Shown here: positions 25,186-43,502 of the stretch, in pieces
Layout of the letters: each line of letters starts with the position of its first letter
Position numbering within the stretch: the first letter of the stretch is position 1
DNA from: Desulfobacter hydrogenophilus
Lineage (GTDB): Bacteria > Desulfobacterota > Desulfobacteria > Desulfobacterales > Desulfobacteraceae
Assembly: GCF_004319545.1 (NCBI RefSeq)
Contig: NZ_CP036313.1
Location: 941,501-1,005,500 of the forward strand
Length of the DNA stretch: 64,000 bases
Direction: 5' to 3'
The notes under the pieces: model-generated
The model's input: only the letters and a program-made list of their open reading frames with translations
What the model was told of the DNA's origin: nothing
Databases searched by the model: none
Position numbers and translations under genes: made by a program

Positions 25186-28155
25186 ATGACTATCAACGAT
25201 TACGATGAGTTGAAAAAAAAATATGACGCCCTGCTTGAAGAAAACAAAGCTCTGAAAGCAAAAATCCGGGAATTAGAGCCCAAACCCGAAATTATTATTT
25301 CCCATCATAAACCTGACCAATCCAGGGAAACGTTGATATTCGGTAACCTTAAAAACACTGCAACAAGCCAAAAATCCGGTACGGCAGTAACATCAGAAAA
25401 ATATGCCAGTGTAATTAGCCGGTATTCTCAAAGCAATGAAAAGATTAAGCTTTTTATGTCCCTGTTTAAAGGCAGGGCCGATGTATATGCAAAAAAATGG
25501 CAAAGCAAAAAGGGCGCTACAGGATACAGCCCGGTCTGCCTGAATGAATGGGTACCCGGGATCTGCAATAAGCCCAGAATAAAATGTTCGGTATGTGGCA
25601 ATCAATCATATGGGACGCTGAATAAATCCGTTATCGAAAAGCATCTCAGGGGTGAGTACGTCATCGGGATCTATCCCATGAATCCTGATGAAACCTGCCA
25701 TTTTCTGGCTATTGATTTTGACAAAGAAGGATGGAAACAAGACATTGCGGTGATTCGAAACACCTGCTCAGAATTTGAAATACCGGTCGCAATAGAGCGG
25801 TCACAATCCGGCAATGGCTGTCATGCCTGGTTCTTCTTTGAACAAAAGGTCCCTGCAGCATTTGCCCGAAAATTCGGGACATCATTATTGACCTACTCAA
25901 TGGGAAAACGGCATGAAATCTCGTTCAAATCCTATGACAGGCTGTTCCCGAATCAAGACACCATGCCGGATGGCGGGTTTGGTAACCTGATTGCCTTGCC
26001 GCTCCAGAAAACGGCCCGGGATAACGAGAATGCGGTTTTTATCAATGAAGATTTTAATCCGTACCCTGACCAATGGCAGTTTTTATCCGGCATTCAAAAG
26101 CTGAGCGAAAAAGATCTGACATCTTTTATAAACAAGCTGGCCCGGGGAAACGACCTGGGAGTGCTAAAGGAAGAAATGTCAGAATCAACACCGTGGAAAA
26201 AACAGCAAGCCATTGACCTGAAGGCTAAGGATTTTCCCAAAACGGTTAAAATGACTAAATCCGGCATGCTGTATATTGAAAAAACAGGGTTAAGCCAGAA
26301 AGCATTAAATACCCTTAAAAGATATGCGGCCTTTAAAAACCCTGTATTTTATAAGGCCCAGGCCATGAGAAAATCAACCTTTGGCAAGCCAAGGGTCATT
26401 TCCTGCTCAGATGATTATAAAAACCATCTTGCCCTGCCTCGCGGGTGTGAATGCGATATCAAATCTTTGTTCAAAAAAAATAATGTCACTCTGATACAAG
26501 AAGATGAATCAAATCCCGGAAAGGCAATTAATGTTGAATTCCGAGGTGAATTGAGGGATGAACAGCAACTTGCGATTGATGCATTGTCGGTACATGCCAA
26601 TGGCGTGTTAGCAGCTGCGACGGCATTCGGGAAGACCGTTATCGGCGCAAAATTAATCAGTATAAAAAAAGTAAACACCCTGGTATTGGTTCACCGGCAG
26701 CAACTTGTTTCCCAGTGGCGGGAACGGCTGGAACAATTTCTCATCATCAATGAATCCCTTCCTGAACCGCCTAAAAAAAGAGGCCGTAAAAAAGAACTCA
26801 ATATCATCGGCCACATGGCGGCCGGGAAAGACAGCTTAAGTTCCATTGTCGATATAGCGGTGATGCAATCATTGAATACCAAAGGAGATGTCAAAGAAGC
26901 CGTACAAAATTATGGAATGGTTCTTGTGGATGAATGCCATCATGTTCCTGCAGTCACTTTTGAACAAATATTGAAGAAGACCACAGCAAAATATATTTAC
27001 GGCTTGACGGCCACCCCTGCCAGACCTGACGGCCACCACCCGATTATCTTTTTTTACTGCGGACCTGTACGGTTTTCAGTGGATGCAAAAAAACAGGCTG
27101 AAAAGCGTCCCTTTGAGCACTATCTCATGCCAAGATTCACATCATTTAAATCGCCACCAGATAAAGACGGAAAACAGCTGTCTCTTCAGGAAATAAAAAC
27201 ATGCCTGGCATCAGATGAAATAAGAAACCAGCTCATCATGGATGATGTATTGGAATGTTATGAAAAAGGGAGAAAGTCCTTAATTCTAACAGGTCGGGTT
27301 GGCCATGTAGCAGAACTTGCAGCAAAGCTAAGGGAAAGAATATCAAATGTTATTTGCCTCACAGGTGGTATGGGGGATAAAAAAACGACCCGGGTAATGA
27401 GGGAAATCAATGGGATTGAGGAGACAGAGCCCTTTGTACTGGTTGCCACGGGCAGCTATATTGGTGAGGGTTTTGATGAAGCACGGCTGGATACGTTATT
27501 TTTGGTCATGCCCATTGCCTGGAAAGGGACACTGCATCAATATGCCGGCAGACTGCACCGTTACTTTAAAGGGAAAAAAGATGTACGGATTTACGATTAT
27601 GTCGATCTCCATGTAAAAATGCTCGAAAAAATGTACGGGAAACGGCTGAAAGGATATGCCTCAATCGGTTATAAAGCCAAAGCCTCAAAATATCCCGATG
27701 CACCGACCAATATTATTTTCAATAAAGACAGTTTTTTTCCGGTTTATCTGCAGGATATTGCCGTTGCCTCAAAGCATCTGCTGATCGTCAGTCCGTTTAT
27801 CACAAAAAACAGGATGTACCAAATGATGGACCACTTTAAGGACCTCTTGAAAAAGCAGGTAAAAATAACGATCATAACCAGACCGGCTGATGATTATGAC
27901 AAAAATAGAAAAGCCATGTTGAGCAATCTTTTTTCAGATATTGATACACAAGGTGTCCAAATGGTATACAAACCCAACATCCACCAGAAATTTGCAATCA
28001 TTGACAACAAGATTACCTGGTACGGCAGCATCAATCTTTTAAGCTTTGGCTATTCTGAAGAAAGCATCATGCGACTTGAAAGTACCAGTATCGCCCGTGA
28101 ATTAACGGATAGTATCGATATGGAAACCTTTTCCAAGACAACGCCATTGAAATAG
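25186..28155 (+). CDS. TOTE-type primase-SF2 helicase-PLD protein
   Basis: 989 aa. It has a short N-terminal coiled coil (about 5-35) and a CSVC pair near 134. An archaeo-eukaryotic primase domain carries the DxD in FLAIDFDKEGW (about 175) and GNGCHAWFFF. A superfamily-2 helicase has ATAFGKT (about 478), VDECHH (about 580), LTATPARPDG and a C-terminal RecA lobe with GEGFDEA and QYAGRLHR. A C-terminal phospholipase-D-like module has one HxK motif (NIHQKFAIIDNK, about 930). This combination is the TOTE conflict-system type, thought to act in defence or DNA repair; activity is inferred. It is a lone gene in core surroundings with no strong ribosome-binding site. Confidence 0.85.
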   Translation: MTINDYDELKKKYDALLEENKALKAKIRELEPKPEIIISHHKPDQSRETLIFGNLKNTATSQKSGTAVTSEKYASVISRYSQSNEKIKLFMSLFKGRADVYAKKWQSKKGATGYSPVCLNEWVPGICNKPRIKCSVCGNQSYGTLNKSVIEKHLRGEYVIGIYPMNPDETCHFLAIDFDKEGWKQDIAVIRNTCSEFEIPVAIERSQSGNGCHAWFFFEQKVPAAFARKFGTSLLTYSMGKRHEISFKSYDRLFPNQDTMPDGGFGNLIALPLQKTARDNENAVFINEDFNPYPDQWQFLSGIQKLSEKDLTSFINKLARGNDLGVLKEEMSESTPWKKQQAIDLKAKDFPKTVKMTKSGMLYIEKTGLSQKALNTLKRYAAFKNPVFYKAQAMRKSTFGKPRVISCSDDYKNHLALPRGCECDIKSLFKKNNVTLIQEDESNPGKAINVEFRGELRDEQQLAIDALSVHANGVLAAATAFGKTVIGAKLISIKKVNTLVLVHRQQLVSQWRERLEQFLIINESLPEPPKKRGRKKELNIIGHMAAGKDSLSSIVDIAVMQSLNTKGDVKEAVQNYGMVLVDECHHVPAVTFEQILKKTTAKYIYGLTATPARPDGHHPIIFFYCGPVRFSVDAKKQAEKRPFEHYLMPRFTSFKSPPDKDGKQLSLQEIKTCLASDEIRNQLIMDDVLECYEKGRKSLILTGRVGHVAELAAKLRERISNVICLTGGMGDKKTTRVMREINGIEETEPFVLVATGSYIGEGFDEARLDTLFLVMPIAWKGTLHQYAGRLHRYFKGKKDVRIYDYVDLHVKMLEKMYGKRLKGYASIGYKAKASKYPDAPTNIIFNKDSFFPVYLQDIAVASKHLLIVSPFITKNRMYQMMDHFKDLLKKQVKITIITRPADDYDKNRKAMLSNLFSDIDTQGVQMVYKPNIHQKFAIIDNKITWYGSINLLSFGYSEESIMRLESTSIARELTDSIDMETFSKTTPLK

Positions 28156-31013: not shown

Positions 31014-34000
31014 TTAATAGTGTTCCCCTATATACCCAAATGCCTTCTCGAAAAGTTCCTGCTCTTTATGGAGCTTGTATTTAAAAAGCGTTTGCCGGAG
31101 CACCTTCTGTATTTCCTTTTGCCCGGCGTGCGTGCTTTGCCAGCCGTCAAATCGGGTGGCTCGAACGATCTTATCGATGTCCTCAACCACATTGGCGATG
31201 ATCTGCGGAGTCGTGCCGTTCCTCATCTCAAGGAATATTTCAGTGAGCGCCTGCTTGTCGTCCGGAATGACCTCTTCATGGGTCTCGTTTTCGAGGCGGA
31301 CCATATCGCGGGCGGCATCAAGAAGTTTTTTCAACCATTCAAGACTGCTCAAAACTCCGGCTTCATATTTATCCTTGAGGCGTTCAAGGCGTTGTCCCAG
31401 TTCTTCAAAGCGCGGATCATTCTTCGAGCGGACCTTTGCCATAAGGGACAGGTTCAGTTTCTTGGCCTTTTTCTTTTTTTCTTCCTCGGTCAGTTCAAAA
31501 ACCGATTCCGCATCCATAACCAACTCGTCGATATCATCTCTGATCCGATCAATTTCGGTATTTTCATGGATCAATTTGATGGTTTCCGGCCCAAGGGATT
31601 CCCAAAGCAAAGATCCCAATCCGCCGACAGGCTTAATCGACTCATAGACCTGCGCCAACCAGCGATAGTCTTTTCTGAAAGCATTCAGATATGGGTCGGG
31701 CGTAATGGACTCCCAAAAACGTTTCAACACATTGAACTGCGCTGCAAAGGCATCTTTCTTTTCATTGCCGACCAGACAATCCTGCGCGGCAATCAAGCCT
31801 TCGTAGCCTTCGACAGTTCGATCAACACCCGGGAAATACTCCAGGCATTTTTCAATGGCTTCAGGAAACAGCTTTTTGAATGCTTCAACGCTCTCCACCA
31901 CGCCTTCGATTTCCTTGGGATCGTAATCCAATGCCTTGGCAACATTTTCAAACACGCCGAGATAATCAATAATCAGGCCGTGCTTTTTGGTGTCACTGTA
32001 GAGGCGGTTAGTTCGGCACATGGCCTGAAGAAGGGTGTGATCCTTGAGCGGTTTATCCAGATACATGCAGTAGCAGATCGGCGCATCGAAACCAGTAAGC
32101 AGCTTGGCGGTAACAATAATAACCTTGAGCGGGTCGGTCGTATCACGATAGCGGTCGAGCAACTGCTCCTGAACTTCCGGGCTGGCATCAATCCCTTGCC
32201 ACCGTTTGAAGTCTGCCTTCTCAATCGGGAGGCCTAATTTCTGCCAATTAAGCCAGTCGGTTGCTATTTTCTTTGGTTTGCCGTTTTCATCGGTTTCTTC
32301 TTCAATCGTGCCTTGTGAAATGTTCATCACCACTTCAACAGCATCTTTGCCGAGGCGCTCACAAAGGAGATAATACATCCGAACCACAGCCTCGCGGTCA
32401 TACACGACCACTATTCCTTTAAAATGCTTGGGCGCAACGTGGTTTTGATAATGGTTTGAAATATCCTCCGCGATGGCCGTGATACGCTTTGGTGCTTTCA
32501 GCAAGTGGGCCAGCTTTCCAGCTTTTTGAGAGATGAATGTTTTCTCTTCCTCATTGAGGTTGTTCTGTTCTGCCAGCTCCTCAAATCCCTGATCGATGGT
32601 TTCCCGGTCGATGCGCAGCTCAACCAGACGAGGTTCGAATTTGACAGGCAGTGTTGCCTCATCACGAATGGACTGCTTATAGGAGTATCGATTGAGGTAT
32701 CTGCCCGGATCATTGGGAGCGCCGAACAGCTTAAAGGTGTTTCGTTCAAGACCAGAAATCGGTGTGCCGGTCAATCCGAAAAAAAAGGCATTGGGCAAAG
32801 CCCAACGCATCTTTTCACCCAGACTGCCTTCCTGGGTGCGGTGGGCCTCATCCACCAGCACAATGATATTATCCCGGGGATTCAGGCCATCGGTATTGTG
32901 TTCATCAATTTCCACTTCATCGAATTTAAAGACGGTGGTGATCAGGATCTGTCGGGAGTCCTGCTTCAATTCCTGAGCAAGCGCCTTGCATGACTTTACC
33001 GGCGTGACGTTTTTGACAGCGGCATTGTTGAACACCGAGTTGATCTGACTGTCCAGATCCACCCGGTCAACGACCACCACAACCGTTGGATTTTTCAAGT
33101 CGGAATCTGCCTTGAGCATCTGCGCCGCAAACAGCATCAAGAGTGATTTACCTGAACCCTGAAAATGCCAGATCAGTCCCTGACGGGCATCCTGCGTCTT
33201 AACGCGCTCAACTATGGCTTTGGCCGCTTCATATTGCGGATAACGAGGCAGAATCTTGATTTTGAAACTCGGTTTGCCTGCTCCCTGTTTGATCGTCGAG
33301 AACACCACAAAGGATTGCAGGATGTCCAACAGCGTCTTCGGGTGCAGCAGACGTTCCGCACTCTTTAGCACGGTACGCATATCCTGCGGGATTGCTTCTC
33401 GGTCTTCGGTACTGTGCCACGGAGCCCAGTTCTTAAAACGGGCGCCGATCGCACCGTAATAGAAGGTCTTTCCTTCCGAGGCAAAGCAGAGCAGGTTCGG
33501 CACAAAAAAGGCTTTCTGGTTTTCCCAGTAATGCTTTTGACCGCCCAAAAAATCCGCCGCGCCATCCTGCCAGCTGATGGCATCGCGCACCGGCGTTTTT
33601 ACCTCACCGACGACCAGAGGCAGCCCGTTGACATACAACACCAAATCAAAGTAACAGTCCCTCGTACCGGTAAACTGAACCTGCTGACTGACCACAAAGT
33701 GATTGTTCTGCGGTGTATCGAAATCAAGCAGGTGAATAGTGATGTGTTCGCCATCCTTGCCAAGCGGCATGGAAATACGGCCCAGCAGCCAATCCTGAAA
33801 GATCTCATTAGCCCGGATTAACCCGCTGTAGCCTGCTTCCAACAGCACGCCACGCAAACGGTGAATCACCTCATCCGCCAGATCCGGATTGGTAGCCAGT
33901 GGTTTATTCAATCGGCACAGCGTGTCCTTAAGCCAGGTATCGACAAAGACATCCTGAGGCTGCTTGCCATAAAGCACCAGATTTTCACCATGGACATATT

Positions 34001-34136
34001 TCCATTTCAGATCTCTGTTGCTCGTAATGTATTCCGCCGTTTCTTCAGCCACCATGCCGGTCTGAGCGGTAACAGGCTTACCAACAAGGTGGTCGCGTAG
34101 AGCATTCTCGATCGTATTCATCTCATTGAAGCTCAT
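31014..34136 (-). CDS. hsdR: Type I restriction endonuclease, R (motor/nuclease) subunit
   Basis: 1040 aa, typical for HsdR. The N-terminal nuclease domain (HSDR_N) includes YFDLVLYVNGLPLVVGEVKT, with the PD-(D/E)xK residues (about 165-195). The helicase motor has Walker A FQGSGKSLLML (about 322) and a DEAH box VDEAHRTQEG (about 428), with LTGTPI and the second RecA lobe (QAMCRTNRLY). The C-terminus is helical and binds the methylase. The enzyme translocates and cuts unmethylated DNA. It begins 4 bases after the AlbA_2 gene rather than overlapping hsdS, a sign that its original neighbour was separated from it. Confidence 0.96.
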   Translation of the reverse strand: MSFNEMNTIENALRDHLVGKPVTAQTGMVAEETAEYITSNRDLKWKYVHGENLVLYGKQPQDVFVDTWLKDTLCRLNKPLATNPDLADEVIHRLRGVLLEAGYSGLIRANEIFQDWLLGRISMPLGKDGEHITIHLLDFDTPQNNHFVVSQQVQFTGTRDCYFDLVLYVNGLPLVVGEVKTPVRDAISWQDGAADFLGGQKHYWENQKAFFVPNLLCFASEGKTFYYGAIGARFKNWAPWHSTEDREAIPQDMRTVLKSAERLLHPKTLLDILQSFVVFSTIKQGAGKPSFKIKILPRYPQYEAAKAIVERVKTQDARQGLIWHFQGSGKSLLMLFAAQMLKADSDLKNPTVVVVVDRVDLDSQINSVFNNAAVKNVTPVKSCKALAQELKQDSRQILITTVFKFDEVEIDEHNTDGLNPRDNIIVLVDEAHRTQEGSLGEKMRWALPNAFFFGLTGTPISGLERNTFKLFGAPNDPGRYLNRYSYKQSIRDEATLPVKFEPRLVELRIDRETIDQGFEELAEQNNLNEEEKTFISQKAGKLAHLLKAPKRITAIAEDISNHYQNHVAPKHFKGIVVVYDREAVVRMYYLLCERLGKDAVEVVMNISQGTIEEETDENGKPKKIATDWLNWQKLGLPIEKADFKRWQGIDASPEVQEQLLDRYRDTTDPLKVIIVTAKLLTGFDAPICYCMYLDKPLKDHTLLQAMCRTNRLYSDTKKHGLIIDYLGVFENVAKALDYDPKEIEGVVESVEAFKKLFPEAIEKCLEYFPGVDRTVEGYEGLIAAQDCLVGNEKKDAFAAQFNVLKRFWESITPDPYLNAFRKDYRWLAQVYESIKPVGGLGSLLWESLGPETIKLIHENTEIDRIRDDIDELVMDAESVFELTEEEKKKKAKKLNLSLMAKVRSKNDPRFEELGQRLERLKDKYEAGVLSSLEWLKKLLDAARDMVRLENETHEEVIPDDKQALTEIFLEMRNGTTPQIIANVVEDIDKIVRATRFDGWQSTHAGQKEIQKVLRQTLFKYKLHKEQELFEKAFGYIGEHY

Positions 34137-34140
34137 TGAA

Positions 34141-35364
34141 TCAACCTTTTCGCCTTGGCAGAATTACTTTCAAATAGTCCTCCGTTGCCTCAAAGATTGG
34201 ATCACAATCATTATGAGAGCGCATTAGTGGAATAACTTTGGTCCGCAACCCCATACCCCGGAAATCCACATAACCATAATCCCTCATAATTTCCATGATG
34301 ATGGTGTTGCGAGTATATCTTTGTCCTGCAATCATTTTTTCAACAGTCATTGAGTTTTGAAGGCAACCAGGGCTGATGACTTCAAGTCGATCGGAATAAA
34401 TACCAATTTCAATATCCACAAATCGAGTCCAATCTCTATGCACTAAAGCATTGATAAGTACTTCCCTTATCGCTTCAATAGGATACAAATATTGCTTTTC
34501 ACGCTGGAAATTCTCAGCAATTTTATCCAATTCTTCAGAAATAAATGGATCCATTTTTTGAAGAACACTTTCAATCAGCCCTTCATCAATCAATTGCCTT
34601 GCCCCTTGCGTAAAATCCCATCTGGCAGCAAGAGGCCCATCCAAAATAGCATCTAATTCTGCTTTATATTCTTTATCCGGGCTATTGAACGCAAATAACC
34701 TCAGACCACTTTGTTTTAAATATTGGCGCGGTTGCTTCCCGAATAATACAATTCCGGCGATCGTGCACATTCCTTTGGGTTCGGTTAAGAAACCAATGTT
34801 TGCCAACCTGTTTTCCCATTCAGCATCCGTTGAAGGCATATCAGGATCATTTACAATATCTTTGAGATAATTTTCTATGCGAACTTTATCAAGATCATTT
34901 GATGAGGTGCGAGATACCGGCAGAACTTCGGTATGGAGCATGCCTCCTATCTCATATAGCCGCATCTGCTGCTCACGGGTTGCAAGGCGTGAAGTTGAAC
35001 CCACTCTGATAAAAACTTCTTCGGCTTTATTATGCCGTCGAACATAAGGCTTGGAGCTCCCTTGTGGAAAGGTAAGAACAGCCACAATGGTTCTCTCATC
35101 TATTTTGATTTCTTCATAAAAAGGCAAAATCGCGGGATGAACCTTCTCTGAAATGACATTCATCACCCATTCTTCTACATCTGAACGCTGAAGACCAGAG
35201 ATAGATCCATCATCATCAACCCCTAAGAGGATCTTACCTCCTTGAAAATTAACCAATGCCACGACTTCTTTGGCCAGCTGTTCTGGACGAATGTCATCCC
35301 GTTTGAACTCAACACCGGAATTTTCACCATTGGCAATAATCTCAAATAATTCTGTTTTCAGCAT
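34141..35364 (-). CDS. AlbA_2 (Schlafen-like) plus HATPase_c_4 ATP-binding protein
   Basis: 407 aa. Residues about 14-130 are an AlbA_2 putative DNA-binding domain (SGVEFKRDD, VVALVNFQGGKILLGVDDDG, VFIRVGSTSRLA). The C-terminal part is a GHKL-type ATP-binding domain (AIREVLINALVHRDW, EIGIYSDRLEVISPGCL, GMGLRTKVIPLM). Such proteins are widespread on islands near restriction systems and are annotated as transcription regulators or ATP-dependent helicase-like proteins; the mechanism is unclear. It sits between trlF and hsdR with gaps of 9 and 4 bases, as cargo inside the hsd operon. Confidence 0.87.
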   Translation of the reverse strand: MLKTELFEIIANGENSGVEFKRDDIRPEQLAKEVVALVNFQGGKILLGVDDDGSISGLQRSDVEEWVMNVISEKVHPAILPFYEEIKIDERTIVAVLTFPQGSSKPYVRRHNKAEEVFIRVGSTSRLATREQQMRLYEIGGMLHTEVLPVSRTSSNDLDKVRIENYLKDIVNDPDMPSTDAEWENRLANIGFLTEPKGMCTIAGIVLFGKQPRQYLKQSGLRLFAFNSPDKEYKAELDAILDGPLAARWDFTQGARQLIDEGLIESVLQKMDPFISEELDKIAENFQREKQYLYPIEAIREVLINALVHRDWTRFVDIEIGIYSDRLEVISPGCLQNSMTVEKMIAGQRYTRNTIIMEIMRDYGYVDFRGMGLRTKVIPLMRSHNDCDPIFEATEDYLKVILPRRKG

Positions 35365-35373
35365 AGTATCATC

Positions 35374-38034
35374 CTAATAGCCGTATTTGAGTTTGCGTTG
35401 ATTAAAGGCAGTACGTCCGCCCTCAAGAATATTCGCCGCCTTTTCACGCACTGCAGGAACATCAATGGCACCTTGTGCTTCGGGGGGCATGACTCCTTGT
35501 TCATCCACTGATTCAAAAATGCCAATCCATTCAGCATCACCAAAGACTGGAATATTGGCATTGTGAGTAGCAAAGAGGAACTGGCGATTAATCTTTGCGT
35601 TACGTAATTCGGAAACAATGCGATCGGCAATAAACGCATTATCCAGATTGTCCTCGGGTTGATCCATAATGAGCGGATCTTTGTTTTGTAACAATAGCAG
35701 ATGCAGCACAGCCGTGCATTGCTGACCTGTTGAAAGCTTTTTCAATGAACGATAATTCGCTGCACCTTCATGTGATACATTCAATTCAATTTCAATGATG
35801 TCGGGCAATTCCAGCTCTTGAAGTTCGAGCACTTTTGATGCAGGCAGCCTAACCAGTGCATTTGCAATAGTTGGCGTTATACCCCAATTTGATCCTGTTA
35901 GTTCACCCATGCCTTTTTGAATCAATTCAGCAAGCTTCACTGGGGAAAAATCATCATGCTCATTAATCCATGAAAGACGTTTTTCCCCAACACCTTCCAA
36001 GTTGCAGCTTTGTAAGAAATCGATAACAGGCTGCCTGTTGGCTTCTGGCTTCACCGTTAGCTTCAGTTTGTTTTGCAGCTTTTTATTCAGCTTCTTGAGT
36101 GAAGACTCAAATTGAGCCGTTCGACTTGCACGATAACCCGAGAGTTCTACCAACAGAGAGTTTCTTTGTTTTTTCAGTTCATCAATCAAGGCTTGCTGAC
36201 TCCTGATTGCAACTTCCTTGGGTTTAATCCGTTCTATTGCCTGAAGAAGCTGTTGATATTCAACACCAATTTCACGTCCACTTTTCCCTTCGCTTGCGGG
36301 TAGATTCTTAAATGTTTTTTCCAGTGTCTCTTCTTCACACTGGATACCTTGTTGCACGTCCGCAATCAACCGGGTAATGATTGCTTTGCTCGTTGTGAAA
36401 AAAGCCTTCCATTGATCAAATGTTCTTTCCGTGTCGACTTTCAACTGATCCAATGTTGTTTTTATTTTCTTTAATGCGTCGCTGTGGGGAAGATTGTCAA
36501 TCGCCTTATCACTTAAAAAAACGGTATCCGGCAAAGCATCCTTGATTTGAGCAAAAGCCTGCTCCAGATTATATAATTCCTCTTGTTCAATACGCTGTTT
36601 AAGTCTCTTTTCTGTTTCTAACAGAGGAATAATCTTGAGCTTATCCTCAATACCAAGTGATTTAAATTGTTGCACGCGTTCCTGCAACTTGGGCAATTTG
36701 CTTAATTCATCTTCAACAATCGATTTATCCTCAAGAGCATTATGCAATTTTTTTCGATTCCCATTGAGGGCAATGAGTGCTGTTTTTATTTTATCCTCAA
36801 AAGTATCATGTTCAGCATCTAAAAAGCGGCCAAGTAGTTTCTTTTGAGACTGGCCATCCTGGGCGATTTCGTAAATCTCGTTCTGACCGTAGATTTCTAT
36901 CTCAGGGAGAAGCTCGCGGGGAGTGAAGGATGAAATATTTCCTGCTTCCTCTTTTACAGAGGCGCTTTCACCATAGCGACGGGCAATGGTGTATTTTTTG
37001 CCATTCATTTTAGATGAACGCACTACCAACTCAATTCGACCTTTGGATTTGCCAATATTTTCCTTGATGATTTCCAGATGTTGTTTACACGCGCTCTTAC
37101 CAATAGGATCCAGCTCCAGTGCATAACGAATGCATTCCAGCAGGGTTGATTTTCCTGTTCCGCGACCACCAATTACCGAATTCAAGTGTTCTGAAAAATT
37201 AATATGAACACCATCCAAATACCCCCCGGTAATGGATAATGATTCAATGCGAGAATAGTATTTTTCTGAAATATCACTATTTAAACGCACCCGGGACTCT
37301 GGATCCTGAAACGCCAACTTAAAGGCCTCAAAACCGGGTTTGGTCATCTTAATCAGGCAAGAGGCTTTTGGATTTTTTAGTGTCTCGGGTTTTTCCACAT
37401 CTTTGGCATTGATAATGGCAATAGGTGTTTCTCGTGTATAATCCCTGTTTTTATTCATTAAAATCTGACGATAGCCATTATTCTCTTCAGCTTTTAATTC
37501 ATCAAGTGTTGCAGGGATTTGAGCGGCTTTTAGCAGGTCATTTTTCCAAACATGAACAAGTTTGTGTTTCAGTATCCCACTGTCATCCGTGCAGTGTGCT
37601 GCATAACAAAAGCCACCAAGCTCATTTATTTTTAACACTAAGTCATTGCCGCCAAGATTGGATGGCCAGACACCATCACTCGGATTCGTTAAGCCCAATG
37701 CCCCTAAATAGCGATTCAGCTGGTCTGTTGTTGTCTTCTCAGGAAAAAGACATACAAAATGCACTTTTTCGGTGGTTGCAATCTCAAACCCTGGAAAAAC
37801 AAGGATTCCATGTGGTTTCAAGACATTTCGAATCGCATCGATTCCATCCACATTGCCGTGATCAGCGATGCCAAGTACTTTGATATTCTCTTCTTTGCAG
37901 ACCTGCAAGAGCTGCTGGTTATATTCGTCTTCCGTTAAGCGCTGCTCCTCTCCCCGATAAGCAAGATAAGTGTAAGGATTCACCTGTAAAGCACACTTCC
38001 AGAACCGGGCTTTTGTGTATGTTTCGGTCATCAT
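35374..38034 (-). CDS. trlF: TrlF-family PHP/SMC-like ATPase
   Basis: 886 aa from ATG 38034, or the adjacent ATG 38031, which is better spaced from AGGAG. The N-terminal PHP-like metal domain (KVLGIADHGNVDGI, about 60) is followed by an ABC/SMC ATPase: Walker A VIGGRGTGKSTLLE (about 290), a long coiled coil (about 400-700), and Walker B DPLIMDQPEDNLDN (about 790). This is the TrlF family, frequently encoded inside type I restriction operons. The architecture resembles DNA-sensing defence or repair ATPases such as RecN or RloC-like proteins. Its target is not known. Confidence 0.85.
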   Translation of the reverse strand: MMTETYTKARFWKCALQVNPYTYLAYRGEEQRLTEDEYNQQLLQVCKEENIKVLGIADHGNVDGIDAIRNVLKPHGILVFPGFEIATTEKVHFVCLFPEKTTTDQLNRYLGALGLTNPSDGVWPSNLGGNDLVLKINELGGFCYAAHCTDDSGILKHKLVHVWKNDLLKAAQIPATLDELKAEENNGYRQILMNKNRDYTRETPIAIINAKDVEKPETLKNPKASCLIKMTKPGFEAFKLAFQDPESRVRLNSDISEKYYSRIESLSITGGYLDGVHINFSEHLNSVIGGRGTGKSTLLECIRYALELDPIGKSACKQHLEIIKENIGKSKGRIELVVRSSKMNGKKYTIARRYGESASVKEEAGNISSFTPRELLPEIEIYGQNEIYEIAQDGQSQKKLLGRFLDAEHDTFEDKIKTALIALNGNRKKLHNALEDKSIVEDELSKLPKLQERVQQFKSLGIEDKLKIIPLLETEKRLKQRIEQEELYNLEQAFAQIKDALPDTVFLSDKAIDNLPHSDALKKIKTTLDQLKVDTERTFDQWKAFFTTSKAIITRLIADVQQGIQCEEETLEKTFKNLPASEGKSGREIGVEYQQLLQAIERIKPKEVAIRSQQALIDELKKQRNSLLVELSGYRASRTAQFESSLKKLNKKLQNKLKLTVKPEANRQPVIDFLQSCNLEGVGEKRLSWINEHDDFSPVKLAELIQKGMGELTGSNWGITPTIANALVRLPASKVLELQELELPDIIEIELNVSHEGAANYRSLKKLSTGQQCTAVLHLLLLQNKDPLIMDQPEDNLDNAFIADRIVSELRNAKINRQFLFATHNANIPVFGDAEWIGIFESVDEQGVMPPEAQGAIDVPAVREKAANILEGGRTAFNQRKLKYGY

Positions 38035-38036
38035 GA

Positions 38037-38205
38037 ATCTCCTATATCAAATTCTATGCTTTCTGCAATATATTCACCAGTTTTTGCAGCCACCATTCCG
38101 GTTTTGAGCGGTAACGGGCTGGTGGGCGAGATGGTCCCTTAGCGCATTTTCGGTTTCAGCCTTTAGCCTTCCGCCTTCATCCTTCCAACTCTCATTGAAG
38201 ATCAT
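38037..38205 (-). pseudogene. Vestigial 5' end of a second hsdR gene, frameshifted
   Basis: On the minus strand ATG 38205 overlaps the hsdS stop as ATGA, the usual hsdS-hsdR junction. It encodes MIFNES, then a short insert, then ENALRDHLAHQPVTAQ, which aligns with ENALRDHLVGKPVTAQ of the intact HsdR. One extra A then shifts the frame; the next frame reads TGMVAAKTGEYIAE against TGMVAEETAEYITS. The frame-one stop is at 38074. Nucleotide similarity is only about 70 per cent, so this is not a fresh duplication but the stub of a different hsdR allele. The sequence ends at the trlF start. Confidence 0.85.
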
Positions 38206-39413
38206 TGGACACCTCCTATAAATACCTCGTTAAAAAATGAGGTTCTCAGCATTTTCATGCGAGATATTTTAGATTCAATCGAAATAACTGTTTTTTCAGC
38301 ATTATGGAGCTGTTCTTCGATGATACTCATCCCCTCACTTGGAGGAATTGGAATCATTATTTCGTCAAAGACTTCATTGGGGATTCTTTGCCTTCCGGTA
38401 GTCCCTGCCATACGCTTGATTGCATAGCCATGGACCCTATTAGTTCTACACAAATGGTATAAATACTCGCTACTGGTTTTGCGCGGTGAAATTACTATAA
38501 ACTCAGTAGATCCAACCCCGACGCTATCTTCCTTCAGGAAATCTACTATTGTAATTTTTCCGTTCTCAGCACATGGCGTTATTCGTGCAAAAAGGATGTC
38601 CTTATTTTTGAATCTTGCGCCACCACTTACTTTCTCTCGTGTTTCGATCTCACCCTCAATAGACATTGAATCATTACCTACGGCCGCCATTTCGCAAAAC
38701 TGGATTGGTTCACTTTTAGCGAGAGTATATCGGGGATTTATCTGAGCCATTTCAGAGAGAGGTTGAATTTTCCATCCTTTTGGAACTTCTCCCCAGTGAG
38801 TTTTTTCAGTTTGTTTAATTGTGCATCCTTTAAACAAGAAGTTTGACCTAATTGCTTTCCTCAGTATTTTTGCAGAGTCAAAAGCAACTTCACTTCGAGA
38901 AATAGCTTCCTCGACCTTCTCCAGCACTTCGAGGATCTCTTTCTGGCGCTCAATCGGCGGCAGTGGGAATTCCTGAATCGCAAGGGCCTTCCACTTGATG
39001 GTTGGTGAAAGAGACCCTTCCGAGATCGCTACTGCCCGATCCATAAACATGTCTGATTGCATGAAGAAAGGCAGCAGCCCGGGAATGATTTTACCGACCA
39101 CCTCTTCAAGAACCATGGCATGAGCCGAACAGATCCCCTCAAAGTCAGCAACAGCAACTTTTTTCTGATAGGCGCGTCGTTTACCAAAGATGATCTGGCC
39201 AGGGCGAACACGGAGTTTCTGTCCCTTTACATCTGCCGGAACGCCTCGTCGAGCAATACGCAGTGACTGAGGGTCTATATGTTCAAGGCCGACATAGACC
39301 TCTAAATCTGTTTCTGACGGCTCCACACGTTTCGAGATGTTCTTGGCAATCTCCCCGAACTTAACGATCTGCCACCCGTCCTTTATCTGTTTATCTGAAA
39401 GTTCTATTGCCAT
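38202..39413 (-). CDS. hsdS: Type I restriction specificity subunit
   Basis: 403 aa. Two target-recognition domains are separated by conserved helical regions: the first after WQIVKFGEIA, the central spacer FPLPPIERQKEILEVLEKVEEAISRSE, the second beginning PKGWKIQPLSEMAQINPR, and the terminal helix (SIIEEQLHNAEKTVISIESKIS). Each half recognises one part of a bipartite DNA site for both methylation and cleavage. It lies two bases after rhuM, and its stop overlaps the hsdR vestige. The recognition sequence cannot be read from the gene alone. Confidence 0.94.
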   Translation of the reverse strand: MAIELSDKQIKDGWQIVKFGEIAKNISKRVEPSETDLEVYVGLEHIDPQSLRIARRGVPADVKGQKLRVRPGQIIFGKRRAYQKKVAVADFEGICSAHAMVLEEVVGKIIPGLLPFFMQSDMFMDRAVAISEGSLSPTIKWKALAIQEFPLPPIERQKEILEVLEKVEEAISRSEVAFDSAKILRKAIRSNFLFKGCTIKQTEKTHWGEVPKGWKIQPLSEMAQINPRYTLAKSEPIQFCEMAAVGNDSMSIEGEIETREKVSGGARFKNKDILFARITPCAENGKITIVDFLKEDSVGVGSTEFIVISPRKTSSEYLYHLCRTNRVHGYAIKRMAGTTGRQRIPNEVFDEIMIPIPPSEGMSIIEEQLHNAEKTVISIESKISRMKMLRTSFFNEVFIGGVQ

Positions 39414-39415
39414 GG

Positions 39416-40504
39416 CTACACATCCTCGGATTTTTTCTTAGCTCTTTGCGGTTTTTTCTTGGAGGTGGATTCAATCTGTCCAACCACTTTATCAAAATCG
39501 CTGATTTGCTTGCTCGATTCAGTCAGGCGGTTCGTGTGAAATTTATCATACTCACCTTCCGCCAATTGTTTGGCCATTTCATGTGAGATTTTGCCAGCAT
39601 GTGTAAGAATATTCCGATCGTTGAGAGTCATGAAGCTGTCTAATTTTTTTATCCAATCCAACATATACATAGGAACGCGGCGCATGGCCTGTCCCTGTGC
39701 AAAAATCAGGTATTGCTCAACCAGATTGTTCAGTGCCGCCAGTTCATCTTCATCAAGGTAATTCTTGGCAATGGTCACATCCTGTTTGCGGACTTTGGCA
39801 CCACGGTAATTGGTAAGACCCATGTTCGGCTTGTCGGCATCTGCTCTTGAATGAATGATTTCCGCTGCGGTCTGTCCGGTAATCGCCCAGTGCATTTTGT
39901 TCTGGACTGTTTTGAAAAATTCAATGCTCATATCCAGCGTTGGATCATAGTCGATACTGGTGGCGTAAATATCGGTAATTTTCTGATAAAAACGACGCTC
40001 AGAAGTGCGAATATCCTGAATACGCCGTTCAAGTTCCTCAAAGTAGTCAAAGGGCAAGTCCGGGTTTTTCAGGCGTTCATCGTCCAGCAGAAATCCTTTC
40101 TTGATAAACTCGGTGAGTTGCTGAGTTGCCCAGATGCGAAATCGGGTTGCCACATGGCTTTTCACCCGGTAGCCAACTGAAATAATCATGTCCAGATTGT
40201 AAAAGTCGACCATGCGGGCAACGTCTCGTTTCCCCTCTTTTTGAACTATCCGGAATTTCCGGATAGTTGCTTCAGGAGCCAGCTCGCCTTCATCATACAC
40301 ATTTTGTATGTGCTCACTGATGGTTCGAACATCTTTTTGAAACAGCTCCGCCATCAATCTTTGGGAAAGCCATACCGATTCATCTTCAAAACGAACATCC
40401 AGTTTCAGTTTACCGTCCTCAGCCTGATAAACCAGAAACTGTCCTTTGGCGGGCTCTAACCCACTTTCATCAGCCTTATGTGGTTTGTTTTTGTGATCTG
40501 TCAT
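39416..40504 (-). CDS. rhuM: RhuM-family protein within the hsd operon
   Basis: 362 aa. The N-terminal half (EDESVWLSQRLMAELFQKDVRT, about 35-60, then YNLDMIISVGYRVKS) is the RhuM/virulence-associated HTH-like fold. The C-terminal half has ITGQTAAEII, KNYLDEDEL and HAGKISHEMA and a lysine-rich tail. The family is encoded in many type I restriction operons between hsdM and hsdS; related domains also occur in Fic-associated proteins, but no catalytic motif is visible. Its start overlaps the hsdM stop by 4 bases. A second copy is partly present at the left window edge. Confidence 0.92.
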   Translation of the reverse strand: MTDHKNKPHKADESGLEPAKGQFLVYQAEDGKLKLDVRFEDESVWLSQRLMAELFQKDVRTISEHIQNVYDEGELAPEATIRKFRIVQKEGKRDVARMVDFYNLDMIISVGYRVKSHVATRFRIWATQQLTEFIKKGFLLDDERLKNPDLPFDYFEELERRIQDIRTSERRFYQKITDIYATSIDYDPTLDMSIEFFKTVQNKMHWAITGQTAAEIIHSRADADKPNMGLTNYRGAKVRKQDVTIAKNYLDEDELAALNNLVEQYLIFAQGQAMRRVPMYMLDWIKKLDSFMTLNDRNILTHAGKISHEMAKQLAEGEYDKFHTNRLTESSKQISDFDKVVGQIESTSKKKPQRAKKKSEDV

Positions 40505-42006
40505 ACTCCCACCTTGTCTTCCTGGTCATTGAGGATAATCCCAATTTCAGCCAATGCTGCAAAAAGTTTCTTAGACTGCTTTTTGAGTTCAACCCGGCCG
40601 ACCTGCCAAGCCTCGATGGTTGACTCCAAACTCTGACCATCACCATTTGTGCCGTTGTGAACGTACAGAGGGATCGAGAGGTTGTGCATGTTCTCTCTGA
40701 TCTCTTCAATATCCGTCAATCGTGCGATCTCTTCATGGCCTTCCGGCTCAAAATAAGCCGCCACCAGCCGTTCAAGATTCTTGTCACTCAGGAAGCTGAA
40801 TGCTCTTTCCCGGGTTACTTCCTTAACACCGTTTATGAACAGCACTTTATTCTTTCTTCCCTCTGGTTTGTTCATGCACAGGATGACCACGCATGATTCC
40901 ATGGGAGAGTTGTAAAACAGGTTGGGCCCCAGGCCGATGACAGCCTCAATCATGTCGGTCTCAATGACCTTCTTGCGGATGTCTGCTTCCGAATCTCTGA
41001 ACAGTACGCCGTGGGGCCAAAGCATGGAAGCTCTGCCGGTTTTGGGATTCAGGCTTTTGATGATGTGTTGGAAGAATGCATAGTCGGCACAACCTTGAGA
41101 AGGCACACCGAATTCATTACGATTGAAAGGATCTGCACTGAATTTGCTTCTATCCCATTTCTTGATTGAATACGGCGGATTGGCAAAAATAACGTCAAAC
41201 TGCTTTAAGCGGTCGTATTCAAGAAACTTCGGTTCCGCGAGGGTATCCCCACGCTGAATATCAAATTCCTCAATGTCGTGAAGGAACATGTTCATTCTGG
41301 CGATGGCGCTGGTCAGCAGGTTCACTTCCTGCCCGAACAGTTTTGCCGTGCGCCATTCTTTGCCACACTTTCGCAAATCCATCACCGCATTGAGAAGCAT
41401 CCCGCCGGTGCCGCAGGTCGGGTCATAGGCGCTTTCACCGGGTTTCAGCTCCATGACTCTTGTCATGAGGTGGACAACCGTTCTGTTGGTATAAAATTCA
41501 GCGGCTGTATGGCCGGAATCATCAGCGAATTTTTTAATAAGGTATTCGTAAGCCGCCCCCAGATCGTCCTGGGTCACTGCGCTTATACCCAGAGGGATCT
41601 TGCTGAAATGTTCCACCAGAGATGCAAGCAGATGATCCGGAAGCCGTTCTTTATTGGTCCATTGTGCATCACCGAATACGCCATATAGACGCTGGTTACT
41701 TTTCTCTATGGTCCGCAGCGCTTTTTGTATGAAAGCACCGATGTTGGTCGAGGTTTCACGAAGCGTGTTCCAACGGGCGGATTCGGGAATTATAAAACGA
41801 TGCTGCTCAGGCAATACCGCGAACTGGTCATCTCCATCCGAAAAGGCAAGGGCTTCCTCATACTCGTCCTTATAAACATCAGATAGCCTTTTATAGAAAA
41901 GCAGCGGGAAGATATACTGTTTGTAGTCGGAAGCGTCGATTTGCCCCCTTAAGAATTCTGCTGCTCCCCAGAGCATGCTTTCCAGTTGTTGTTGTGAAAG
42001 ACTCAT
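40501..42006 (-). CDS. hsdM: Type I DNA (adenine-N6) methyltransferase, second HsdM
   Basis: 501 aa. N-terminal HsdM helical bundle (SMLWGAAEFLRGQIDASDYKQYIFP); then the methyltransferase core with S-adenosylmethionine motif YDPTCGTGGML (about 195) and catalytic NPPYS (about 275). It is complete. It differs clearly from the adjacent HsdM (42003-43502), for example NPPYS against NPPFS, so the two are paralogues rather than a recent duplication. Both starts and stops overlap neighbours by 4 bases, so both are likely made. A heterodimeric M1/M2 enzyme is the natural reading. Confidence 0.93.
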   Translation of the reverse strand: MSLSQQQLESMLWGAAEFLRGQIDASDYKQYIFPLLFYKRLSDVYKDEYEEALAFSDGDDQFAVLPEQHRFIIPESARWNTLRETSTNIGAFIQKALRTIEKSNQRLYGVFGDAQWTNKERLPDHLLASLVEHFSKIPLGISAVTQDDLGAAYEYLIKKFADDSGHTAAEFYTNRTVVHLMTRVMELKPGESAYDPTCGTGGMLLNAVMDLRKCGKEWRTAKLFGQEVNLLTSAIARMNMFLHDIEEFDIQRGDTLAEPKFLEYDRLKQFDVIFANPPYSIKKWDRSKFSADPFNRNEFGVPSQGCADYAFFQHIIKSLNPKTGRASMLWPHGVLFRDSEADIRKKVIETDMIEAVIGLGPNLFYNSPMESCVVILCMNKPEGRKNKVLFINGVKEVTRERAFSFLSDKNLERLVAAYFEPEGHEEIARLTDIEEIRENMHNLSIPLYVHNGTNGDGQSLESTIEAWQVGRVELKKQSKKLFAALAEIGIILNDQEDKVGV

Positions 42007-43502
42007 AGTTCAAACCCCTCCCGTTCAAGCAGCAGTTCCAGTTCATTTTCCGCAATTTCAAGTTCAGCCAGTTTGGCTTTGAAATCCCGGAGGGCTTCTT
42101 CTACGGTTATCTTTTCTTCTTCGAGCGGCTTTTGGACGTACCTTGCAATATTAAGATTAAAATCATTTTCCTTGAGTTCGGCATACTCAACCCAGCGGGT
42201 AACGCCTTCTTCCTCAAAAGGTTTCTGCTTTTGTTTCTTGTAAAGCTGATATATCTCGTCGGCCTGTTCCTTGGACATTGTGTTTTGAGCTCGGCCTTTG
42301 GTATAGATTTCTTCCGCATTGATAAACAGCACCGGTGATTTTGCTTTGACTGATTTTCTCAAAACAAGAATGGAGGCGGGAATGCCTGTTCCATAGAATA
42401 AATTGCCTGCCAGTCCAATCACCGCTTCTATAGCACCCAAATCCAAGAGTTTTTTCCGGATCTTCGCTTCCGTACCGGATCTGAACAGAACCCCATGAGG
42501 AAGAACAACTGTCATCCGGCCGCTGCCTTCCTTCATGGAAGTGTACATGTGCATGACCCATGCAAAATCACCATTCGTCTTGGGTGCCAGTCCGAACGTG
42601 TGTCTGTTAAAAGGATCAGAAGACCACATCTCATGGCCCCATTCCTTTAGGCTGAAAGGAGGATTTGCGATCACGCAGTCGAACTGTTCCAGGCGGTCAT
42701 AAGTCAAAAACTTCGGATCTCTCAGAGTGTCTCCACGCCTGATTTCAAAATCTTCCATACCGTGGAGGTATAGGTTCATCCGGGCGATCGCTTCAGTTGT
42801 CAGATTTTTTTCCTGCCCTTTGAGCTTCAGCAAACGTGGGTCCCCACCATGTTCACGCACATGATGAACGGTTTCCAAGAGCATGCCGCCAGTTCCGCAG
42901 GCTGGGTCATAAACGGTTTCGTCGGGCTGAGGGTCCAGTACATTTACCATCAAACGGACAATTGAGCGTGGCGTATAAAATTCCCCGGCCTTTTTGTTGG
43001 CCTTATCCGCAAATCGCTTGATCAAATATTCATAGGCTCTTCCCATGTCGTCATCACGAACATGACCGACACCAAGCCTTATTTTGTTAAAGTGATTCAG
43101 GAGCTGGAGGAGTAGATGGTCCGGCAGTCGTTCTTTATTGGTCCAAGGCGCATCTCCGAAAATTCCATAGAGACGGTCATTTTTCTTTTCGATTCCAAGA
43201 AAAGCAGCTTTCAGCGCTTTGCCAACATCTTTTGTTGCGGCAATGACATTGTCCCAATGGCACCCCCCCGGTACCTCTATTCGATGCTGCTCAGATGCTT
43301 TTGCCATCTCTGCGTCGCCATAAAATTCCATGGCTTCTTCAAATTCTTCATCATAAACGTCACAAACCCGCTTAAAGAAAAGTATGGGAAAGATGTATGT
43401 TTTATAGTCGGACGCATCGATAGGTCCTGTAATAATATGTGCCGCTTCCCATAAATGACGCTCAAGGTCATTAAGCGATAGCTTGCTTTTTTTATCATTC
43501 AT
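42003..43502 (-). CDS. hsdM: Type I DNA (adenine-N6) methyltransferase, first HsdM
   Basis: 499 aa. Same fold as its neighbour: LNDLERHLWEAAHIITGPIDAS at the N-terminus, SAM motif YDPACGTGGML (about 193), catalytic NPPFSLKEWG (about 270) and a C-terminal coiled coil that binds HsdS. Sequence similarity to the following HsdM is moderate. It is the first methylase gene after the small HTH regulator. The two HsdM proteins may contact the two half-sites of the HsdS protein separately. Confidence 0.93.
   Translation of the reverse strand: MNDKKSKLSLNDLERHLWEAAHIITGPIDASDYKTYIFPILFFKRVCDVYDEEFEEAMEFYGDAEMAKASEQHRIEVPGGCHWDNVIAATKDVGKALKAAFLGIEKKNDRLYGIFGDAPWTNKERLPDHLLLQLLNHFNKIRLGVGHVRDDDMGRAYEYLIKRFADKANKKAGEFYTPRSIVRLMVNVLDPQPDETVYDPACGTGGMLLETVHHVREHGGDPRLLKLKGQEKNLTTEAIARMNLYLHGMEDFEIRRGDTLRDPKFLTYDRLEQFDCVIANPPFSLKEWGHEMWSSDPFNRHTFGLAPKTNGDFAWVMHMYTSMKEGSGRMTVVLPHGVLFRSGTEAKIRKKLLDLGAIEAVIGLAGNLFYGTGIPASILVLRKSVKAKSPVLFINAEEIYTKGRAQNTMSKEQADEIYQLYKKQKQKPFEEEGVTRWVEYAELKENDFNLNIARYVQKPLEEEKITVEEALRDFKAKLAELEIAENELELLLEREGFEL

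Follow-up and report, generated by a model that had tools for sequence, protein, structure and literature searches.

A type I restriction–modification operon of Desulfobacter hydrogenophilus carries, between hsdS and trlF, a truncated and frame-broken 5′ end of hsdR. We examined this stub within a 64,000-nucleotide stretch of contig NZ_CP036313.1 (positions 941,501 to 1,005,500; hereafter the window, in whose own coordinates positions are given). The stub is very probably a relic of an hsdR other than the working one, left at a junction that acts as a slot for cassettes. That it derives from a different hsdR had been proposed in a first-pass annotation of this DNA, and is supported by its similarity score, its truncation and its divergence at silent sites. 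On balance, we also favour a direction of exchange in which hsdS, the stub and trlF with its AlbA_2 partner (trlFG) were incoming and the working hsdR is native.

An hsdR 5′ end between hsdS and trlF

The stub and the elements recognized in and beside it are as follows.

38037..38205, minus strand: hsdR 5′ stub; its start codon and the hsdS stop overlap, and some 40 codons of the HsdR N-terminus follow, with one frame break
38155..38186, minus strand: heptad-like repeat tract in the stub (KDEGGRLKAE)
38035..38062, minus strand: transition from hsdR similarity to the trlF leader; contains AGGAGATTC, common to the trlF leader of locus L067

As first described, hsdS (ending at 38202) and the ATG of the stub (at 38205) overlap as ATGA. 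The first frame of the stub reads MIFNESWKDEGGRLKAETENALRDHLAHQPVTAQ; after a single frame break near 38103, the sequence continues as TGMVAAKTGEYIA in the next frame, which bears out the earlier description of an HsdR N-terminal match that changes frame. Similarity to hsdR stops at about 38064, trlF starts at 38034, and the later HsdR domains are absent from the stub. In local alignment with the working hsdR the stub scored 64; its dinucleotide shuffles, 1000 in all, reached at most 35, and chance similarity was rejected on this basis. When 1424 tiles of 169 nt, taken from both strands of the window outside hsdR, were compared with the first 200 bases of hsdR, two exceeded a score of 27, and both overlapped the stub.

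The 19 bases from 38062 to 38044 were assigned neither to the hsdR side nor to the trlF side. The adjoining AGGAGATTC (38043–38035), directly before the trlF start, probably belongs to trlF, because the same letters precede trlF in L067, a locus without an hsd match.

Repeats of the GGATGAA/GGCGGAA type, spanning about 32 bases (38186–38155), precede ENALRDHL in the stub. A 21-base pattern of this tract, with up to two mismatches allowed, has a single match in its own genome, at the stub, and a genome-wide mobile repeat is therefore not supported. A second, exact pattern matched in 2 of 10 genomes, once in each and both times at an hsdR 5′ end.

Origin of the stub

Judged by sequence identity, the stub resembles the resident hsdR no more than it does other hsdR 5′ ends. 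In the alignable core, 64 of 85 bases (75%) are shared with the working hsdR, somewhat more than the roughly 70% first estimated, and seven other hsdR 5′ ends of the same linker class reach 74–77% (L006, 67/87; L011 and L005, 66/87; L007, 65/86; L004, 64/87; and, in two genomes of the same genus, G005, 65/87, and G013, 64/87). The remaining sequences compared could be aligned over 9–25 bases only, the best being the stub of G013 (21/25). At the protein level the resident HsdR ranks 36 of 120 against the stub, with a score of 119, and the best score is 123 (P0008 and P0040). The expectation that an intact hsdR would match better than the resident gene was not clearly borne out for the window stub, given these small differences in DNA (L006 versus resident) and protein scores. 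It did hold for the related stubs of G005 and G013, whose linker is, by eye, nearer to those of the intact HsdRs P0043, P0055 and P0061 (which have ENALRDHLCGRQ plus a DEGGR-type linker) than to that of the resident gene.

The differences between stub and resident hsdR are concentrated at silent sites. Across 30 codons, chosen as the gap-free alignable ones (excluding the initial codons, the repeat tract and the terminal part), silent divergence (dS) is 1.58 and replacement divergence (dN) 0.20; 14.2 silent changes fall on 21.5 silent sites versus 11.8 changes on 68.5 replacement sites (one-sided Fisher 3.9e-5, for a short tract with sites treated as independent). The silent excess is seen against each of the eight hsdR 5′ ends compared (p ≤2.4e-4), two of which (G005 and G013) come from frame-broken genes. 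Because the differences are mostly silent, the gene that left the stub probably diverged while still functional, rather than decaying from a copy of the working hsdR.

Searches for further relatives of this hsdR gave 0 in viral contigs and 2 in plasmids, at about 42% (E limit 1e-200), and 3 of 395 genomes in a phylum sample, including the window’s own, with the other two at 45–49% over the N-terminus. Short fragments of close hsdR relatives occur in two more genomes of the same genus (loci L027 and L028, genomes G002 and G006), which suggests repeated gain and loss of this restriction system.

HsdR residues 19–44 (window 34136–33957 and homologues) are hypervariable, with a mean identity of 0.66 to the window HsdR among 96 relatives, compared with 0.89–0.92 in the other stretches measured. 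A KDEGGR-like repeat linker was found in 6 of 97 HsdRs, using one motif.

The hsdS–hsdR interval as a probable cassette slot

The operon lies on the minus strand in the order hsdM1, hsdM2, RhuM-family gene, hsdS, stub, trlF, AlbA_2 gene and hsdR.

42003..43502, minus strand: hsdM1; Pfam N6_Mtase
40501..42006, minus strand: hsdM2; Pfam N6_Mtase
39416..40504, minus strand: RhuM-family gene, in the slot between hsdM2 and hsdS
38202..39413, minus strand: hsdS; two Methylase_S stretches
35374..38034, minus strand: trlF; SMC/AAA-type ATPase, NF045780 at 555.8 bits versus a cut-off of 350
34141..35364, minus strand: AlbA_2 + HATPase_c_4 protein (PF04326, PF13749), trlG-like partner of trlF
31014..34136, minus strand: working hsdR; 1040 amino acids; HSDR_N, SWI2/SNF2 ATPase and T1R_D3

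By Pfam, the restriction–modification gene set is complete, with hsdM, hsdS and hsdR domains present and frames open.

Within this one operon family, the interval between hsdS and hsdR occurs in empty and in differently filled forms. L004, L005 and L007 have it firmly empty, with the last 14 bases of hsdS lying within hsdR. In L006 and L011 it is probably empty; there the hsdR start is overlapped, by ATGA, by an open frame that has 45 codons in L006 and 176 in L011. The upstream frames in L006 and L011 match hsdS weakly (E 0.018 and 0.006) and have no Pfam Methylase_S; L011 has 5,000 masked bases further upstream. Cargo-free junctions, anticipated in the first-pass annotation, are therefore present among the relatives, and its view of ATGA as the normal hsdS–hsdR coupling fits the 4-base form in L006 and L011 but not the 14-base overlap in L004, L005 and L007. 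Elsewhere the slot holds Gabija (L090; GajA 797 bits, GajB 620 bits), an AAA ATPase together with a subtilase of IetS-like type and a macro protein resembling DarG (L009), or an LmuB-like SMC protein with MComp1 (L010). The part of the earlier interpretation that places the breakpoint at the hsdS–hsdR junction is supported. In L008 some other frame precedes hsdR, and L012 contains only the 3′ part of hsdR.

The interval between hsdM2 and hsdS forms a second cargo slot (window 39416–40504; L004 6610–7815; L010 2490–3611; L009 2024–2407; L090 8529–8532), which holds a RhuM gene, a YhcG/DUF1016 nuclease (twice) or a PDDEXK_3 protein, or is empty.

The two adjacent hsdM paralogues (40501–43502) overlap by ATGA and are about 46% alike, as judged by cross-matches in relatives. 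The pair also precedes hsdS in L004, L009 and L010 (the first hsdM being cut in the last two) and L090, and begins in L011. Because the same pair recurs before hsdS in relatives, the operon may specify two distinct M subunits within one type I system.

trlF and its partner form a separate unit

TrlF exceeds the curated cut-off, and the AlbA_2 + HATPase_c_4 partner lies downstream, as in a trlF–trlG pair. A search of the class listed 23 places with trlF, of which 20 stretches were fetched. An AlbA_2 gene follows trlF in 19 of these; the exception, L054, ends soon after trlF. Matches to the Hsd proteins of the window were present in 4 of the 20 (L069, L073, L074 and L084), a count that distant hsd genes could escape, as the queries came from one family and several contigs are short. 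From this gene order, trlF–AlbA_2 is a conserved, separate unit that corresponds to trlF–trlG.

On a Citrobacter IncC plasmid the order is hsdM–hsdS–trlF–AlbA_2–hsdR, with no stub, and the annotated hsdS overlaps trlF directly. In Klebsiella quasipneumoniae the order differs (hsdR–trlF–RNA-binding gene–hsdS), and among the seven further plasmid trlF regions none shows hsdS–trlF–AlbA_2–hsdR as annotated. Some plasmid trlF genes have no annotated AlbA_2 neighbour. On a Klebsiella grimontii plasmid (L086), trlF directly follows a brxL gene, with no AlbA_2 match.

Two further stub lineages

Stubs were also found in the same-genus genomes G005 and G013 and in a Lentisphaerae metagenome-assembled genome (L009). 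A motif scan of 888,191 bases (overlaps counted) detected none beyond these and the window, and none at the five cargo-free or probably cargo-free junctions; beside other trlF genes, the hsdR-start motif was absent from the loci scanned, apart from the stub loci described here.

The stubs of G005 and G013 consist of about 17–20 codons of an hsdR start (in G013 without its own start codon), followed by a linker (..CGRQKDEGGR.. in G013) of a class different from that of their resident hsdR. After the stub come the last codons of trlF, an AlbA_2 gene (80% at the amino acid level) and a frame-broken hsdR. The trlF remnant of G013 ends in ..RKLKYGY and a stop, and has 23 of 23 bases in common with the window. 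We infer that the ancestor of G005 and G013 had the layout of the window and then lost most of trlF. Upstream of the G013 stub, ..YFSDVIFWGLQ and a stop resemble an hsdS end by reading alone; no such end was recognized in G005. In L009, a stub of 16 codons plus a repeat tract stands directly before an intact hsdR, behind other cargo.

Differences between stub and resident gene are mostly silent here as well: 5 silent and 2 replacement over 17 codons in G005, 5 and 1 over 15 codons (from codon 3) in G013, and 5 and 0 over the first 15 codons in L009, where the next, differing codon was left out. When five stretches were folded to look for a hairpin in the repeat tract, the G013 copy alone stood out (z −2.42; the others −1.63, 1.06, −0.43 and 0.26).

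An ancestry change inside hsdR in Escherichia coli

Four E. coli loci (L103–L106) belong to another, enterobacterial hsd family and have hsdM (in L106 only part of it) and hsdR in common with the Citrobacter operon; their cargo is of DUF262/GmrSD type or AAA. In 4 of 4, homology to the Citrobacter operon resumes exactly at the hsdR start behind this other cargo. In L105, bases 1–72 of hsdR are 100% identical to L103, whereas bases 73–372 are 98.3% identical to L106 and 84.7% to L103, so that the ancestry switches within hsdR, near codon 24. Such a change at the hsdR 5′ end was seen in L105 only; the window hsdR, compared in 120-base steps, shows no mosaic, and no part of it stands out from its cluster at the 5′ end.

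Direction of exchange and alternative explanations

Compared with the cargo-free L004, the window is 88.7% identical in hsdM1, 88.2% in hsdM2 and 90.3% in hsdR at the DNA level. The 5′ part of its hsdS is nearer to L010 (77.9%), L090 (76.5%) and L009 (75.0%) than to L004 (74.0%) and L005 (73.2%), which are themselves 95% alike in amino acids over this part (residues 11–172). Because hsdM1, hsdM2 and hsdR are equally close to L004, the stub appears to be the outlier, and the hsdS and trlFG side the incoming one. We propose that the hsdS–hsdR junction of type I operons would be a site at which small defence cassettes are exchanged, with crossovers falling in the 3′ end of hsdS and the 5′ end of hsdR. 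The arriving segment would have comprised hsdS, the 5′ beginning of the hsdR that once followed it, and trlF–trlG, and would have come to lie ahead of the hsdR that matches the operon’s own hsdM genes. The former hsdR would thus be cut at about codon 40, with the working hsdR placed behind the cassette. Joining may have been homologous on the hsdR side and was probably illegitimate between stub and trlF. This order of events, like the direction and the mechanism of joining, is a reconstruction from present-day sequences.

The first-pass annotation had the opposite direction, with a trlF–AlbA_2–hsdR block that replaced an older hsdR. On that reading the native operon would have contained the stub’s hsdR, and the block, from another operon, would have been joined illegitimately at about codon 40. 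We consider this the less probable direction, though a plausible one because all the genes concerned move within one family. The DNA across the hsdS–stub junction, GGAGGTGTCCAATGA, recurs where hsdS meets hsdR in L004, L007 and L011, and L005 and L006 have variants of it; AlbA_2 and hsdR also stand side by side both in the window and in G005 and G013, where their identities to the window DNA are similar (75% and 76–82%). However, with hsdR as close to L004 as the two hsdM genes and with no mosaic break along it, a foreign hsdR would require donor and recipient to have been equally close to L004, and we regard block replacement as disfavoured. It is unlikely that the stub is a decayed duplicate of the working gene’s own 5′ end, produced by target duplication or single-crossover integration when the cassette inserted. 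Such an insertion would give the layout seen here (hsdR 5′ end, cassette, full hsdR), and L009 offers a near-tandem 5′ copy, but the silent-site concentration in all three stub lineages and the differing linker class in G005 and G013 speak against it. Least probable is a selected leader open reading frame that maintains translational coupling from hsdS to trlF. A frame of 43 codons is open from the ATGA overlap, and selection on it would preserve protein sequence; yet it ends 39 bases short of trlF, for which a separate AGGAG is present, the frame that encodes HsdR is interrupted, the Citrobacter plasmid has an annotated hsdS that itself overlaps trlF, and the motif is missing beside the other trlF genes scanned, some on contigs that start at or near trlF.

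Several points weigh against our preferred reading, a relic of another hsdR with hsdS, stub and trlFG incoming. The alignable tract is short (30 codons) and leaves the branch point of the stub unplaced, and a selected short leader would likewise keep replacement changes low. A donor, with hsdS next to an intact stub-like gene, was not found among the loci examined. The three genes do not track perfectly in the comparison with L011 (hsdM1 89.3%, hsdM2 83.5% over the 553 bases visible, hsdR 88.9%), and halves of hsdS are often swapped, which weakens the hsdS-based argument for direction. Beyond base 372, L105 hsdR is again nearer to L103 (96.5%) than to L106 (94.6%), a pattern that may reflect a short conversion tract as well as one crossover. 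In the motif scan no stub appeared in L010 or L090, both of which carry cargo, and blastn and tblastn found an hsdR stub in 0 of 5 enterobacterial loci (L085 and L103–L106), with weak matches only (E 0.016–0.037) in L085, L103 and L106. The scar is therefore not a necessary product of the exchange.

The three stub lineages, their silent-site divergence and the change at codon 24 of E. coli hsdR suggest that one of the two joints is the hsdR 5′ end, and a fragment of such an end in the vicinity of hsdS or a cassette could serve as a simple search mark that flags an exchange. A more speculative extension, which we consider doubtful, is that the hsdR 5′ end acts as a docking arm: cassettes would carry or leave an hsdR 5′ piece on their left and be flanked by two hsdR 5′ ends. 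If so, they could move in and out of hsdS–hsdR junctions by recombination at these flanking ends, and the hypervariable HsdR linker (residues 19–44) with the repeat tract would be the footprint of exchange.

Relation to known systems

Defence genes between hsdS and hsdR have been described in the accessible part of one report (PMC12255303), with DarTG2 in the EPEC RRDM island and a pair of an AAA-like ATPase and an RNA-binding protein in four genomes, and the site was called a potential recombination hotspot. These systems occupy the same slot as the cassette studied here and include, by description, the same two-gene pair as trlF–AlbA_2; that set was found through the regulator RptR, and the available text describes no hsdR remnant. 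In the excerpted account of the Photorhabdus trlF–trlG (TRL) operon, TrlG has AlbA_2 (14–128) and HATPase_c_4, the same domains as the AlbA_2 protein of the window, with trlF in the same operon (PMC7554251). As presented there, the Photorhabdus operon lies between polA and dsbA, with the small regulator trlR and a temperature phenotype, whereas the window pair lies inside a restriction operon. Decayed type I loci of Staphylococcus epidermidis contain truncated hsdR and hsdS genes, and the authors took a truncated hsdS between hsdR and hsdMS to indicate that component genes had recombined (PMC6918075, accessible portion). In those loci, as far as that portion goes, truncation of hsdR goes with a system that does not function, and what recombination left over is hsdS; in the window, the gene set is complete and the leftover is an hsdR of another lineage. 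No foreign hsdR stub beside a cassette was described in the open-access literature searched, in the parts available, a weak negative, as most subscription papers lie outside that scope.

Near the restriction operon, the window also encodes a TOTE-type primase–helicase with a PLD domain (25186–28155, plus strand).
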